Source: an uncultured Actinomycetes bacterium
GTDB taxonomy: Bacteria; Actinomycetota; Actinomycetes; S36-B12; UBA5976
Assembly (NCBI GenBank): GCA_903892635.1
Contig: CAITJH010000010.1
Coordinates: forward strand, 1 to 40,597
Length of the DNA stretch: 40,597 nucleotides
Reading direction: 5' to 3'
A model generated the notes under the pieces. The model did no database searches, was not told where the DNA came from, and saw nothing but the letters and a program-made list of their open reading frames with translations. Positions within the stretch are counted from its first letter, which is position 1. Each line of letters starts with the position of its first letter. Shown here in pieces: positions 11,268 through 26,937 of the stretch. A program made the position numbers and the translations under genes.

Positions 11268-12410
11268 TTAGTTCTTCGCAGCGCGAATCCATTCCGCTTT
11301 GCCATGAGGAATGCGGCGAGGGTCAAACATCGAGACATCTAACACTGGGTCTTTCTTTCCCGCCATGAGGTTTGCAAGCATCTGCGCTAAGGCAGGTCCT
11401 TGCATGGTGCCGTGCCCATCAAATCCAGCAAAGACCCACAAACCATCTTCGATCTCACCTACATAGGCGTGGCCATCGCCACCGGTGGCGTCAAAAGCGG
11501 CACTCGTCGTTGTCCGCATTCCCACTTCACTGAAAATTGGGGCGCGCACACTTGCTAATTCAGCGAATTGTTCCATGACAGCATTCTTGCCGTGTGGACC
11601 AAACGTTGGATCAGAAACCGTAACGCATGCCCCTTCGCCTTCTCTTTCGATAATCAGCCCCGAATCAAGATCAATCATGAGTGGCATCGGTTGACCAACT
11701 GCTACCGCCGTGGTGTACCCACAATGCAACCACAACGGCGTGATATCGAGGTCCACACCAAACGGCTTGGCCATAGCGGGTGCCGACAAACCTGACGCGA
11801 TCACGACACGATCAGCCGAAATTGTTTCACCAGCTTCAACAAGCCAACCTGAATTTGCCTGGTTAATCGATTCAACACGAGTGTGTTCACGAATTTTTAC
11901 GCCGAGATTCTTTGCGGCTCGTGCAAGGCCATACAAGCCATCTGTCGGATTAAAACGACCATCGAGTGGCGTGTAACTTCCGCCAAGTAATCCTTCGGGG
12001 CTTAGCCACGGTGCAACATCTGTAATTCGATCGGCCGAAATGATCTCGACATCGGGTGCACCTGCAGCACGTTGCGCTTGTGCCGCAAGTTCAAGTGCAG
12101 CAAGAGTCTCAGGTTTACCCGTAACTAGTAGATAGCCATCCTGATAGTAGGTGCATGGGTAGTCAAAATCTGATTCGAATGTCGTCCAGAAATTGCGTCC
12201 CCGAATAGCCAATTCGATTTCAGGTGCCGTACTAAATTGTTGACGAACTCCCCCAAGCGACCCTTGAGTGCACCCACTTGCGAGTTCATTAGCTTCAAGA
12301 ACAACGATTCCAGTTTCACCATTACGCGCCAGAAAGTATGCCAGAGCAACACCTGCAATACCACCACCGATAATTACGGTGCTGTACGAACGTTGCACTG
12401 CTGAATTCAT
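11268..12410 (-). CDS. FAD-dependent amino-acid oxidase/dehydrogenase, DadA/proline-dehydrogenase-beta type
   Basis: The 380-residue protein is a DAO-fold flavoenzyme. It starts with the dinucleotide motif VIIGGGIAGVALAYFLARNG, continues with the GSLGGVRQQFS segment seen in DadA, sarcosine-oxidase-beta-like and proline dehydrogenase beta subunits, and ends with VFAGFDGHGTMQGPALAQ, the usual C-terminal FAD-contact region. Likely substrates are D-amino or cyclic imino acids such as proline or hydroxyproline. I chose the ATG at 12410, four bases after the ProC-like stop; an upstream TTG/ATG-like start at 12449 would overlap that gene by 35 bases. It is the last gene of the minus-strand set with a ProC-like reductase, GntR and DapA-family lyase. 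Confidence 0.8.
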   Translation of the reverse strand: MNSAVQRSYSTVIIGGGIAGVALAYFLARNGETGIVVLEANELASGCTQGSLGGVRQQFSTAPEIELAIRGRNFWTTFESDFDYPCTYYQDGYLLVTGKPETLAALELAAQAQRAAGAPDVEIISADRITDVAPWLSPEGLLGGSYTPLDGRFNPTDGLYGLARAAKNLGVKIREHTRVESINQANSGWLVEAGETISADRVVIASGLSAPAMAKPFGVDLDITPLWLHCGYTTAVAVGQPMPLMIDLDSGLIIEREGEGACVTVSDPTFGPHGKNAVMEQFAELASVRAPIFSEVGMRTTTSAAFDATGGDGHAYVGEIEDGLWVFAGFDGHGTMQGPALAQMLANLMAGKKDPVLDVSMFDPRRIPHGKAEWIRAAKN

Positions 12411-21557: not shown

Positions 21558-22349
21558 TTACTTCTCGTCATAACCAGGGCGAGGAACCGAACTCATCAAT
21601 GTTGTTGTAAATCCGCCATCGGTAACGATGTCAGCACCTGTGACATAGCCAGATCGATCACTAGCCAAGAACAACACGACTTGCGCAATGTCTTCTGGAC
21701 GTGCAACGCGACCGATAGGCACTGCTTTGTCACGGCGAGCTGCAACATCTCCCACGTTGTAATAGGCCTCAGTCATCGGAGTGCGAACTAAGCCGGGGCT
21801 CACTGTGTTGCTTCGCACTCCTCGAGCGCTCCACTCTAAAGCTAGTTGTTGCGACAACATCAAGACTCCTGCTTTGCCCACGCTGTAGGCACCGCTATTG
21901 CCTTGCGCATTGCGACCAGAGATTGATGCGATGTGAACGAGTGAACCATGCCCGCGCTCAAGCATTCCCTTACCAAAAGCTTTCGAAGTAAAGAAGTATG
22001 CATTCATGTTGACATCGAGAACTGAGTTCCAATCGTCCACGGATACATCAGCGATACCGCCTGGACGAGAAATTCCAGCGCAGTTGACCAGAATGTCGAC
22101 TGCACCTGCTTGCGAAGCAGCATTCTCGACACTTGCTACATCAGAGACGTCACATGTTATGAGAAGCGGATCAGGCCCAACGGCAGAGACTGCGTTAGCC
22201 GCTTCGGTTAATGAATCCAGCGAACGATCGAGCATGACAACGCTCACTCCTTGTTCGGCCAAGGCAATTGCCACGGCGCGCCCGATTCCACTTCCTGCTC
22301 CAGTTACCGCAGCTACTTTTCCGTCGAGGCCAAGCCAGTTTTGTGTCAT
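21558..22349 (-). CDS. SDR-family oxidoreductase
   Basis: The classical short-chain dehydrogenase, about 263 residues, has the NAD(P) motif TGAGSGIGRA, NCAG (VNCAGIS), the catalytic serine in HIASISG, YSVGK with catalytic Tyr and Lys, and the C-terminal DRSGYVTGADIVTDGG typical of FabG-like enzymes. An acidic residue after the second strand (MLDRS) suggests NAD preference. I chose the ATG at 22349, which has TAGCGT seven bases upstream; an earlier in-frame start at 22373 is less likely. Substrate unknown. Confidence 0.88.
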   Translation of the reverse strand: MTQNWLGLDGKVAAVTGAGSGIGRAVAIALAEQGVSVVMLDRSLDSLTEAANAVSAVGPDPLLITCDVSDVASVENAASQAGAVDILVNCAGISRPGGIADVSVDDWNSVLDVNMNAYFFTSKAFGKGMLERGHGSLVHIASISGRNAQGNSGAYSVGKAGVLMLSQQLALEWSARGVRSNTVSPGLVRTPMTEAYYNVGDVAARRDKAVPIGRVARPEDIAQVVLFLASDRSGYVTGADIVTDGGFTTTLMSSVPRPGYDEK

Positions 22350-22362
22350 GTGCGAAACGCTA
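22350..22362 (-). promoter_or_regulatory. Near-leaderless -10 of the SDR gene
   Basis: TAGCGT (22362-22357) lies seven bases before the ATG at 22349. Confidence 0.45.
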
Positions 22363-22462
22363 CTGGTTCTCACATGATTAGCGATGGAAAATTAATGAAT
22401 ATTTCCCAACATCTGAGCCGATTTCCCGCGAGTGCCAAAACCTGACAGAATAGGAAACTCGT

Positions 22463-22617: not shown

Positions 22618-22630
22618 TAGATTGTCAACT
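22618..22630 (+). promoter_or_regulatory. Near-leaderless -10 of the second SDR gene
   Basis: TAGATT lies seven bases before the ATG at 22631, with no Shine-Dalgarno. Confidence 0.45.
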
Positions 22631-23503
22631 ATGGCTTTTGAATACGCAGGAAAAGTTTTTGTCATTACCGGTGCTGCCGGCGGAATTGGATCGCACCTCG
22701 CTCGAGATTTTGCAGAACGCGGCGGTGTTGTATGTGCACTTGATCTCAATGAAGTAAAACTCAAAGAGCTTGTTGAATCCCTTCCAGGTTCAGGGCATAC
22801 CTCGATCGCTGGCGATCTGACTGAAAGGTCGCACATTGTCGATTGCATCTCTCGTATCACTTCGACATACGGCCATATCGATGTGCTTATACCTAATGCT
22901 GCAATTACAACGACCGATCGATTCGATGAACGTAGCTCTGAAAGCATCGAACGCGAATTAGACATCAACCTCACTGCACCGCTAGTTCTAATGAACAAGG
23001 CAATACCTCTTCTCAAGCAATCAAGTGACCCACGAATCATCACTACGGTGTCTCTTGGCGGTATCTTCCCGCTTGGCGAAACACCGATGTACACCGCATC
23101 AAAATTTGGTTTGCGAGGTGCGATTTTGTCGCTTGCGCTCGACCTTGAGCCAAAAGGCATCAAAGTTGGCGCAGTCATGCCATCTGCAACAGATACACCA
23201 ATGCTTCATCGTGAGGCAGTTGAAGGCGGTAACTCACTGCAGTTTCTTGATCCGCCACAAAAGACCGATGAAGTCGTCAAGGCATTTCATAAGATGCTCG
23301 ACAAGCCAACGTACGAACGCTATCCAAAACCAAGTGAATCGTGGCTGGTGCGCATTGCAATGATTGCACCAAGCGCTCTGCCGAAACTGATGCCGCTATT
23401 TCGCGGACGAGGCGAAAAGGGGCATCAGAAATTCCTCAAGGATCTCGAGTCACGAGGGCTTGTTCGTCGCAATGGCGACGAATGGGAAATGATCGAAGAC
23501 TAG
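22631..23503 (+). CDS. SDR-family oxidoreductase
   Basis: The 290-residue short-chain dehydrogenase has TGAAGGIG for NAD(P) binding, LDLNE after the second strand, IPNAA (NNAG equivalent), YTASKFG with catalytic Tyr and Lys, and a longer C-terminal extension (KLMPLFRGRGEKGHQKF) than FabG-like enzymes. This extended type often acts on hydrophobic alcohols or ketones. Its stop overlaps the stop of the permease-monooxygenase fusion by four bases on the opposite strand. A shared pathway is possible but not shown. Confidence 0.87.
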   Translation: MAFEYAGKVFVITGAAGGIGSHLARDFAERGGVVCALDLNEVKLKELVESLPGSGHTSIAGDLTERSHIVDCISRITSTYGHIDVLIPNAAITTTDRFDERSSESIERELDINLTAPLVLMNKAIPLLKQSSDPRIITTVSLGGIFPLGETPMYTASKFGLRGAILSLALDLEPKGIKVGAVMPSATDTPMLHREAVEGGNSLQFLDPPQKTDEVVKAFHKMLDKPTYERYPKPSESWLVRIAMIAPSALPKLMPLFRGRGEKGHQKFLKDLESRGLVRRNGDEWEMIED

Positions 23504-26310
23504 CCCCGGGATTCACTCGAGGAAGACAGTTCCCGAAGGCTTTCAAAAGCATCTTCGTCAAAGTCATACCAATGGAACGAATCTCGCAAATGCGCTAGAT
23601 ACTCTCGATAGGTATCAACATCGATATATCCAGTGTGGCGTGGGCTATCGACATAGGAATGTCCACCAGATAAATCTGGATGATCACTGTGGCGATGAGC
23701 AAGCCACGCATCCATCATTTCGCCCGTTTCTTGAATTCGGATATCCATCACAATCATGTGTGCCATATCTTCGAAACGCTTGTATGCAGCATCGGCGAAT
23801 TCGGCAAAGCCAATGAAATATAAGTGATCGTATTGACGTGAAAAGAGTCGCAAATACAACTGAGGGCGGCCATGAATCCACGACAGATCTGGTGCATTGA
23901 GGAAAGGCACAGAATATTGATAGCCCGTTGCCAAAACAATATGATCGATTTTTTCAACTGATCCATCGACGAATTCGACTCCGTCAGCAAGTATTTGCTT
24001 GACATCAGGTTTAGCCACTAAATCGCCATGAGCCATGTGATACAGCACTTGCGTATTCATAATGGGATGGCTCTCAAGCACGTTGTGATCTGGCTTTGGC
24101 AGGCCAAAGCGAGTGAGATCTCCAACCAGTGTGTCGACGAGCTTGTTGGCATCACCAGAAAGCGAGACCCCTCGAGGAGGATCAATGACTCCTGAGAGCA
24201 GCGCATCGGTTGGAATGCCGAACACATGCTTGGGAACATAGCGATAGCCACGACGCACTGAAAGGAATGCCGTATCCGCGTATCGTGCGGCATCACATGC
24301 AATATCTACTCCCGAATTTCCCGCGCCGACCACGAGGACATTTTTACCTGTGAATTGTGAACCGTCACGGAATGTCACCGAGTGTTCGATAGTTCCATTG
24401 AAATCAGTGGCACCTGGAATCTGCGCGACATTGGGATGCCAGTTAGTTCCTGTTGCTACTACAACGCCGGCATAGGTTGCAACATGACCGTTGTCTAACT
24501 CGACTGTCCACGTGCCATCAGCATTTGGCGACGCACTTGTCACAGCGGTGTTTAGTTGCACTTTGTCATAGAGGCCGTATGCCTTAGCAAAACTTCGAAT
24601 GTAATCACGGATTTGACGCCACGTCGGGTAGTCGGGGTAATCATCTGGCATTGGAAATCCAATAAAAGCGCTGGTGTACTTCGAGCTTATGAAGTGAGCA
24701 CTTTCATACATCGGACTACCGGGATTATCCATGTCCCACAATCCACCGACGTCGCTGTGACGTTCGAACCAATCGAAGGGAATGCCTTCCTTAAGGAATG
24801 CGCGCGCAGTAACCAAGCCAGAGGGTCCTGCGCCAACAATGCAGTACTTGGTCGAATAATTTGCTGGAGGTAAAATCGCAGCTTTGCGAACGCGCAATCT
24901 CGACGAAGCCAACTTGGCGTAAACTGCCGGATCGTTTTTCCGCAGGTGCGACCCTTTGGCAATACCTGCAATCGCTACAACTACTAAAAGGATTGGCACG
25001 AGGTTAATGACTTTGTTATCACTTCCAGTCAACGTTCGGTAATTCATCGATGCCAAAACGAATGCTGAAGTGAGACCAACAAATCCAATCAGCGGCGCAG
25101 CAAAACTTGACCACCACGATCGATCTCGACGCCGCCAGAAAAAGACAACTACGGACAGTGATGCAAGCGCCTGGAGTGCAATGATGCCCAGTGTTCCCAT
25201 TCCGATCAAACTTGCAGCAAATACTCGATAAGGGTCTGCGTTAGAAACGGCGAACACAAGCGCTACTACTGATGACAGCGCGCTGATTGCCACGCTTGCG
25301 ATGTGCGGGCTAAAGAATTCCTTGTGATACGACGCAAAGATGCGCGGCATAATTGCTTCACGACCGAGGGCGAACAAATAACGACTTGCAGCATTGTGAA
25401 GTGCCGAATAGCTTGCGAGCACGCTAGTGCACAGTAAGACTGCGGCGATGTCGTAAAGAATTTCGCCGCCGAATTGGTTTATGAGGTTGAGCACCAGTAC
25501 ACCACCGTCGCTTTGCGCGCGGTCCTGAACGTTCTCGACACCAATAGCACCGATCACAAACCACGTGGTGATGACATAAAAGATTCCAACAGTTGATACC
25601 GCAATGTAAGTCGCCCGAGGAATGCTGTGTTCTGGATCTTTAGTCTCTTCGCCGTACAGTGCAGCAGATTCGAATCCAATGAAACTTGTAAAGGCAATCA
25701 TCAATGCAATGCCGATTGAGCCCGAAAAAACGTGAGTCGGTGCAAATGAAGCTACCGGAAATGCGTGCACGCCCTTGTCCGCCACGACAAAGCCACCAAA
25801 AACTAGCAAGACCAGGAATTCCAGGCTCATCAGAACGCCCAAGACTTTGGACGACAAGTCTGCCGAACGATAGCCCAGCACACCGACTACTACGAGGCCG
25901 ATGACTGAAAAAACGGGCCACGGAACACTCACGCCAAGACCATCAAATACTTGCTGCATAAAGTAGCTAAAGCCACCGAGCAAACCAATGGCCATGGTTG
26001 TGTATGCAACAAGTGCAACATAAGCCGCACCAACGCCTGGCGACTTACCTAATGCACGCGACACATAGGTATAGAACGCGCCAGTATTGACGACACGTCG
26101 ACTCATTTGGGCATAGCCAACCGAGAAACACATCAACACCAACGATGCAATTAAGAACGCTGCAGGTAACCCTGCGCCATTGCCTTGAAGCAAAGCAATT
26201 GGAACATTGCCAACCATTGCAGCCATTGGCGCGGCCGCGGCAATAACAATGAAAACAACTCGACCTGTCGAAAGAACTCGCGGACCGGTCTTAGTGGTGT
26301 CATTCTGCAC
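23500..26310 (-). CDS. Fusion of APC-family amino-acid permease and flavin-containing monooxygenase
   Basis: One unbroken frame of 936 residues joins two proteins normally separate. Residues 1-455 form an APC/AAT amino-acid or polyamine permease with about twelve helices (opening ISTG-like VLSTGRVVFIVIAAAAP, and SFIGFESAALYGEETKDPEHSIPRA at 209-233). Residues 487-910 form a class B flavin monooxygenase: FAD motif GAGPSG (493-498), FMO signature FNGTIEHSVTF (637-647), NADPH motif GAGNSG (662-667) and LATGY (793-797). A basic linker of about 30 residues (456-486) would put the enzyme on the cytoplasmic face. The start is a GTG. It lies 27 bases after rdgB on the same strand. Uptake coupled to N- or S-oxidation of an amine or amino acid is inference. 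Confidence 0.9.
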   Translation of the reverse strand: MQNDTTKTGPRVLSTGRVVFIVIAAAAPMAAMVGNVPIALLQGNGAGLPAAFLIASLVLMCFSVGYAQMSRRVVNTGAFYTYVSRALGKSPGVGAAYVALVAYTTMAIGLLGGFSYFMQQVFDGLGVSVPWPVFSVIGLVVVGVLGYRSADLSSKVLGVLMSLEFLVLLVFGGFVVADKGVHAFPVASFAPTHVFSGSIGIALMIAFTSFIGFESAALYGEETKDPEHSIPRATYIAVSTVGIFYVITTWFVIGAIGVENVQDRAQSDGGVLVLNLINQFGGEILYDIAAVLLCTSVLASYSALHNAASRYLFALGREAIMPRIFASYHKEFFSPHIASVAISALSSVVALVFAVSNADPYRVFAASLIGMGTLGIIALQALASLSVVVFFWRRRDRSWWSSFAAPLIGFVGLTSAFVLASMNYRTLTGSDNKVINLVPILLVVVAIAGIAKGSHLRKNDPAVYAKLASSRLRVRKAAILPPANYSTKYCIVGAGPSGLVTARAFLKEGIPFDWFERHSDVGGLWDMDNPGSPMYESAHFISSKYTSAFIGFPMPDDYPDYPTWRQIRDYIRSFAKAYGLYDKVQLNTAVTSASPNADGTWTVELDNGHVATYAGVVVATGTNWHPNVAQIPGATDFNGTIEHSVTFRDGSQFTGKNVLVVGAGNSGVDIACDAARYADTAFLSVRRGYRYVPKHVFGIPTDALLSGVIDPPRGVSLSGDANKLVDTLVGDLTRFGLPKPDHNVLESHPIMNTQVLYHMAHGDLVAKPDVKQILADGVEFVDGSVEKIDHIVLATGYQYSVPFLNAPDLSWIHGRPQLYLRLFSRQYDHLYFIGFAEFADAAYKRFEDMAHMIVMDIRIQETGEMMDAWLAHRHSDHPDLSGGHSYVDSPRHTGYIDVDTYREYLAHLRDSFHWYDFDEDAFESLRELSSSSESRG

Positions 26311-26337: not shown

Positions 26338-26937
26338 TTATCCGAGGATTTGAGCTACTAGTTGTGTCAGAGCGCGGCTTCTGTGGCTAATTGCGTCCTT
26401 TTGAGCTGGCGTCATTTGGGCCGTCGTGATGTCAAAGCCAACTGGCACAAAAATTGGGTCATAGCCAAAACCATTTGTCCCGATTGAATCGCGCAACAAT
26501 CGTCCTTCGATTGCTCCTCGAACAACAATTTCTTGACCCTCAGGTGTCACATACGCCGCGGCACATACAAATTGTGCGCCACGTTTATCATCGGGCACAT
26601 CAACCATCTGCGACAGCACGAGTTCTCGGTTCGTTGCGTCAACATTGTCGATGGCCCCTGACCAACGTGCTGAGAGAATCCCCGGCGCACCATTCAGCGC
26701 ATCCACACACAATCCGGAGTCATCTGCAATCGCAGGGATTCCAGTAAATTGCGCGAGTGCTCGAGCCTTCAGCAGCGCGTTTCCCTCAAATGTGTCTTCC
26801 GTTTCTTCTACCTCTGGAGCGCCAGGAAAATGATCAACTGTGAGCAACTCGAATGCAACGCCATGGTCTTTGAGAATTCGATCCAACTCTTCAAGTTTGT
26901 GCGCATTACGTGTCGCAAGAACAATTTGCTGTGTCAT
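26338..26937 (-). CDS. rdgB: Non-canonical purine NTP pyrophosphatase (RdgB/HAM1)
   Basis: This 199-residue enzyme hydrolyses dITP, ITP and XTP to monophosphates, keeping them out of nucleic acids. The N-terminal ATRNAHKLEEL (T/SxNxxK motif), ETEDTFEGNALLKA, ADDSGLCVDALNG and C-terminal ISHRSRAL signatures are all present. The ATG starts immediately after the rph stop, with no gap, so the two are co-translated. The rph-rdgB order matches the mycobacterial block. Confidence 0.96.
   Translation of the reverse strand: MTQQIVLATRNAHKLEELDRILKDHGVAFELLTVDHFPGAPEVEETEDTFEGNALLKARALAQFTGIPAIADDSGLCVDALNGAPGILSARWSGAIDNVDATNRELVLSQMVDVPDDKRGAQFVCAAAYVTPEGQEIVVRGAIEGRLLRDSIGTNGFGYDPIFVPVGFDITTAQMTPAQKDAISHRSRALTQLVAQILG

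Follow-up and report, generated by a model that had tools for sequence, protein, structure and literature searches.

A gene encoding an APC permease fused in frame to a flavin monooxygenase (FMO) was detected in the window, the 40,597-nucleotide stretch of uncultured actinobacterial DNA that we analyzed. The frame is uninterrupted and runs on the minus strand from a GTG start through 936 residues (23503–26310), with its stop at 23500–23502. An SDR gene and rdgB lie on either side of it, and the features considered here are as follows:

23500–26310, minus strand: APC–FMO fusion gene, a single open frame of 936 aa plus stop
24946–26277, minus strand: APC permease part, residues 12–455 (Pfam, AlphaFold model, and structure match)
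24853–24945, minus strand: basic linker, residues 456–486, between the APC and FMO parts
23581–24852, minus strand: FMO part, residues 487–910 (Pfam; closest solved structure DiatB, 8z12)
24688–24690, minus strand: codon of Ile541, at the site of the FMO active-site Asn (alignment)
22622–23503, plus strand: short-chain dehydrogenase (SDR) gene, convergent with the fusion and adjoining its 3' end (conserved partner)
26338–26937, minus strand: rdgB, 27 bases upstream of the fusion

Both halves were recognized by Pfam, the permease as AA_permease_2 (PF13520; residues 17–444, E 4.8e-28) and the enzyme as FMO-like (PF00743; residues 488–834, E 3.6e-50), and a search of NCBIfam assigned no equivalog to either. 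The open reading frame list, these matches, and the conserved relatives described below bear out an earlier note made from the sequence alone, which had placed an APC permease and an FMO in one 936-residue frame. The short basic linker that it described is also present, with the FMO following directly and no hydrophobic segment after it in the fusion protein.

The fusion is genuine and reflects neither a sequencing error nor a chance join. Approximately 24 distinct homologues, 51–86% identical, retain it in Nanopelagicales-type MAGs, Streptomyces, Amycolatopsis, Actinocorallia, Paeniglutamicibacter, and one Agrobacterium plasmid; the carriers include Streptomyces shenzhenensis, S. humidus, Actinocorallia sp., Amycolatopsis rhizosphaerae, and Paeniglutamicibacter antarcticus, as well as many freshwater actinobacterial MAGs. 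The plasmid-borne fusion of Agrobacterium sp. T29 is named just "amino acid permease" in RefSeq, and because automatic annotation describes at least one such protein in this way, the enzyme half can be overlooked. Counting full-length or near-full-length single-frame proteins among 60 relatives searched, we found the fusion in six further genomes of the same genus (G001, G002, G003, G007, G016, and G018) and in two from another family of the order (G045 and G057), all 61–86% identical. Overall, the fusion is rare. Approximately 16 of the 166 genomes of the order carry it at full or near-full length, in families f1, f6, and f7; among 395 genomes sampled from the class, G621 was the sole one beyond the order with a full-length match, and the one match besides the window in a phylum sample of 396 genomes (E 1e-150) was an FMO alone. 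Mean column identity across an alignment of 23 fusions was 69%, and comparison with the 86% identical protein of L050 gave dN values of 0.095 (APC part) and 0.103 (FMO part), dS being saturated or nearly so. Strong purifying selection acts on both halves.

An assembly or frame error, or the production of two proteins through an internal start, could also give the appearance of such a fusion, and two-gene versions in two relatives are in keeping with that explanation. The same join nevertheless recurs in more than 20 independent assemblies, isolate genomes included, and in the window, as in many relatives, the linker contains neither ATG nor GTG in frame as a potential start. We rejected an assembly or frame artefact on account of the independent fused homologues, and consider this class of explanation extremely improbable. 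Relatives split at the linker, or a frame error, had been named in the earlier note as what would count against the fusion: most relatives are fused, which excludes a frame error, whereas the split does occur in the two relatives with separate genes. In "Streptomycetaceae bacterium AM_0118" (L079:9995–12747), one TGA interrupts the fusion frame in the third helix region and the remainder is intact; sequencing error, decay, and recoding are all possible causes.

The permease half is an APC-superfamily member with a LeuT-type fold. It matched AA_permease_2 at 98.7 bits (gathering cut-off 27) over profile positions 5–426 of 427, and an AlphaFold model from a 23-row alignment (pLDDT 80.8, pTM 0.64), in which the mutual placing of the APC and FMO halves is not established, has permease helices spanning residues 15–459, broken TM1 and TM6, and the AdiC/ApcT fold. 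The closest structure match was AdiC (Z 39.0, 423 residues aligned, rmsd 3.0). An amino acid or amine as the cargo is suggested only by the APC fold. The C-terminus of AdiC/ApcT-type proteins is cytoplasmic, and this topology, together with the basic tail and the lack of a later hydrophobic segment, predicts that the FMO half should face the cytoplasm. An 859-aa frame around a distant APC gene in G843 was also considered and rejected, as it is just an open high-GC upstream frame.

The FMO half carries the FAD motif GAGPSG (493–498), the fingerprint FNGTIEHSVTF (637–647), the NADPH motif GAGNSG (662–667), and ATGY (794–797), and scored 171 bits against PF00743 (cut-off 22); it thus has the dinucleotide motifs and fingerprint of class B. 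It is 34% identical to DiatB (8z12) over 407 residues (Z 35.6), a protein for which we found no paper in the open-access literature, and phmmer matched it to the DiatB N57A mutant entry at 237 bits. In the phmmer alignments, Ile541 lies opposite Asn57 of DiatB (Ala in 8z16) and the Asn of the ancestral FMOs, its counterparts being N57 in DiatB, N62 in AncFMO5, and N61 in hFMO3. Class B FMOs have Asn (or Gln) at this site to stabilize the C4a-(hydro)peroxyflavin, and the window protein has Ile. The statement of the earlier note that all FMO motifs are intact thus holds for the FAD, fingerprint, NADPH, and ATGY motifs but fails at the active-site Asn. Scores against the NCBIfam equivalogs for Tmm (97.6 bits, cut-off 675) and ArsO (120 bits, cut-off 425) fell under their cut-offs, and both identities were rejected.

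In a published survey, the residues recorded at this dyad position are Asn and Gln, with Thr, His, or Val as rare cases; the Asn is postulated to stabilize the C4a intermediate, and its mutation abolished mFMO activity (PMC10682829). In hFMO3, the N61S variant shows faster decay of the C4a-hydroperoxyflavin and lower activity (PMC5676948). We found the motif HxISSK/R in all fused and split proteins, and stand-alone FMO relatives down to approximately 34% identity also have Ile, with Asn in the outgroup proteins L019, L027, and L030; across the 55 rows examined, the position was Ile in 50 and Asn in 5. A wide bacterial Ile-type FMO subfamily bearing HxISSK/R was observed (L018, L020, L021, L086, L107, L121, L122, and L123), and some members lie inside PKS-like clusters (Paraburkholderia and Azospirillum). 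Because the stabilizing Asn is Ile throughout this FMO subfamily, its chemistry may depart from classical N/S-oxygenation: judged from these alignments, the subfamily would either stabilize the hydroperoxyflavin otherwise or perform other chemistry, which may be Baeyer–Villiger-like, a substrate-triggered oxygenation, or an NADPH oxidase activity. The N- or S-oxidation proposed in the earlier note is possible, but the motif check lends it no support, and with Ile in place of the hydroperoxyflavin-stabilizing Asn it cannot be assumed.

Alternatively, the FMO half may no longer oxygenate, serving as an NADPH/FAD regulatory or oxidase domain that redox-gates the transporter or makes H2O2. Such a role would suit a domain in which the dyad Asn is Ile in every fused and split relative, the NADPH- and FAD-binding motifs are intact, and the whole has proved dispensable, with at least two losses. 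The same Ile, however, occurs in stand-alone FMOs beside SDRs (Burkholderia and G500) and in the Ile-type FMOs of PKS-type clusters, settings in which transporter gating is not expected, and the invariant surroundings of the active site point to catalysis. We consider this alternative unlikely, and oxygenation by the FMO half is presumed.

The steadiest partner of the fusion, overlooked in the earlier note, is the SDR gene, which adjoins its 3' end in most loci. The two genes run in the same direction at the loci of Streptomyces, Amycolatopsis rhizosphaerae, and Agrobacterium; within the window's genus, and also in a permease-only group, they converge. The SDR additionally neighbors permease-free FMO genes in Burkholderia ambifaria, where the genes overlap, and in G500. 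By the neighbor test, an adjacent SDR was missing at the fused loci L041, L043, L045, L046, and L053, and in L047 an extended-SDR gene takes its place. Several loci, L048 and L049 among them, have a TetR regulator divergent upstream of the fusion, and aldo-keto reductases lie near four; these recurring alcohol/carbonyl enzymes are suggestive of a pathway that handles an alcohol or ketone beside the FMO. Besides the SDR, neighboring genes vary between genomes. The earlier note had also placed the fusion 27 bases after rdgB at the end of a housekeeping operon, which holds for the window. Because the order murI–rph–rdgB–fusion recurs in the other loci of the genus, co-transcription with the housekeeping operon is likely there, but not as a general rule.

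Several further neighbors were observed. A second SDR of another subtype lies beside the partner SDR in the window (21558–22373) and in the nearest relatives. In one MAG, the fusion is followed downstream by pntA and pntB (L041:13566–16505), transhydrogenase genes that might supply NADPH. The permease-only loci L055–L063 (e.g., L058:11422–15325) have the same SDR adjacent, and most have genes nearby for an FGGY-family kinase and for a homologue of sphingosine-1-phosphate lyase (E 1e-133 to 3mad), a cluster that looks undescribed. A neutral/alkaline ceramidase gene lies directly upstream of the Actinocorallia fusion (L047:7770–9863). Sphingoid-base catabolism was rejected as a general function: at the thresholds used, the window genome has neither lyase nor ceramidase, neither gene has a match in the listed genomes of the same genus, and ceramidase was found in only 4 of the 166 genomes of the order. 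An S-methylmethionine route, raised by a homocysteine S-methyltransferase gene beside L053, was rejected as confined to one genome.

The distribution of fused, split, and truncated forms indicates how the gene may have arisen. In Amycolatopsis pithecellobii (L054), the APC gene stops at a TAG at 11468, the FMO gene starts at 11504, and a dehydrogenase gene follows, while on plasmid pCRE138 of Rhodococcus erythropolis R138 the APC, SDR, and FMO are separate genes within one cluster that also encodes an enoyl-CoA hydratase, a nitronate monooxygenase-family protein, an AMP-binding enzyme, and an aldehyde dehydrogenase. Fused proteins form a single group in the FMO tree (85/90), with the FMOs of A. 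pithecellobii and R138 as its sister and FMO genes without an APC falling outside the fused and two-gene groups. They likewise form a single group in the APC tree (99/88), and permease-only genes branch inside it: those of the freshwater group L055–L063 (100/100), that of Arthrobacter MYb227 (paired at 100/100 with the fused gene of Paeniglutamicibacter, with shared synteny), and probably that of Rhodococcoides trifolii, whose placing is weak. In both trees, L103, L104, L116, and L117 are fused genes or their contig-edge pieces rather than stand-alone genes, as is L084 in the APC tree only. Most permease-only genomes have no close FMO elsewhere, although G562 also has the fusion and Arthrobacter has only a 37% identical relative. 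These trees fit a single fusion event from an APC–FMO operon, after which the FMO half would have been lost at least twice, and probably three times.

Because the FMO was lost repeatedly and the permease retained, coupling is not obligatory, and the permease can work independently of the FMO. This retention of the APC and SDR, along with the absence of constant pathway genes other than the SDR, would also be expected if the halves were joined just for co-expression and membrane targeting and their substrates were unrelated or unlinked. Against such an arrangement, separate genes of the two families lie in a single cluster in R138 and adjoin in Amycolatopsis, both outside the fused clade, and linker length is almost unvarying across fusions. 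The neighboring separate genes in R138 and A. pithecellobii support a shared pathway, and we regard unlinked halves as rather improbable.

We lean slightly towards a bifunctional membrane protein in which import is followed by oxidation by the tethered FMO, working with the neighboring SDR. A 12-helix APC-fold (LeuT-type) secondary importer would bear a soluble FAD/NADPH-dependent FMO-type enzyme at its cytoplasmic C-terminus; the permease would take up a small amine, amino acid, or amino alcohol, and the flavoenzyme would oxidize the arriving compound with NADPH and O2, benefiting from high local concentration and trapping it metabolically. The SDR may then perform the next, or the preceding, alcohol/carbonyl step. 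A stronger version, with kinetic coupling between import and oxidation and a transporter-tethered flavoenzyme from a subfamily able to activate oxygen in the absence of the canonical Asn, is a tentative proposal; if true, it would be new both as a transporter–enzyme architecture and, among class B monooxygenases, as an active-site variant.

Transporter–enzyme fusions are known as a kind, though to our knowledge secondary transporters rarely carry a redox enzyme within one polypeptide. In line with the earlier note, which knew of no characterized protein with this layout, we found no paper describing the APC–FMO architecture in the open-access literature; a subscription paper could exist. Since the gene exists fused, as an operon, and truncated, its natural variants allow tests of the coupling of uptake and metabolism, and the Ile-for-Asn subfamily offers a way to gauge the reliance of class B monooxygenases on the canonical residue.

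Comparison with known systems places each half in a familiar family and sets the whole apart. The AdiC, ApcT, LAT, and CAT families share the fold and full-length APC match of the window permease, which is only 13–18% identical to solved APC-fold transporters and, unlike them, has a C-terminal enzyme. The nearest solved relative of the FMO half, DiatB (PDB 8z12–8z17), is a stand-alone 432-aa chain with Asn57, whereas the window FMO is fused and has Ile541 at that site. Class B FMOs more widely (mammalian and ancestral FMOs, mFMO/Tmm, and YUCCA) have in common with it the FAD and NADPH motifs, FxGxxxHxxxF, and ATGY, but carry Asn at the dyad position (or Gln, His, Thr, or Val in reported clades; PMC10682829), in contrast to the Ile and transporter fusion of the window. 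The clusters of R138 pCRE138 and Amycolatopsis pithecellobii contain the same APC and FMO families with an SDR nearby, as in the window, and differ in that the two are separate genes.
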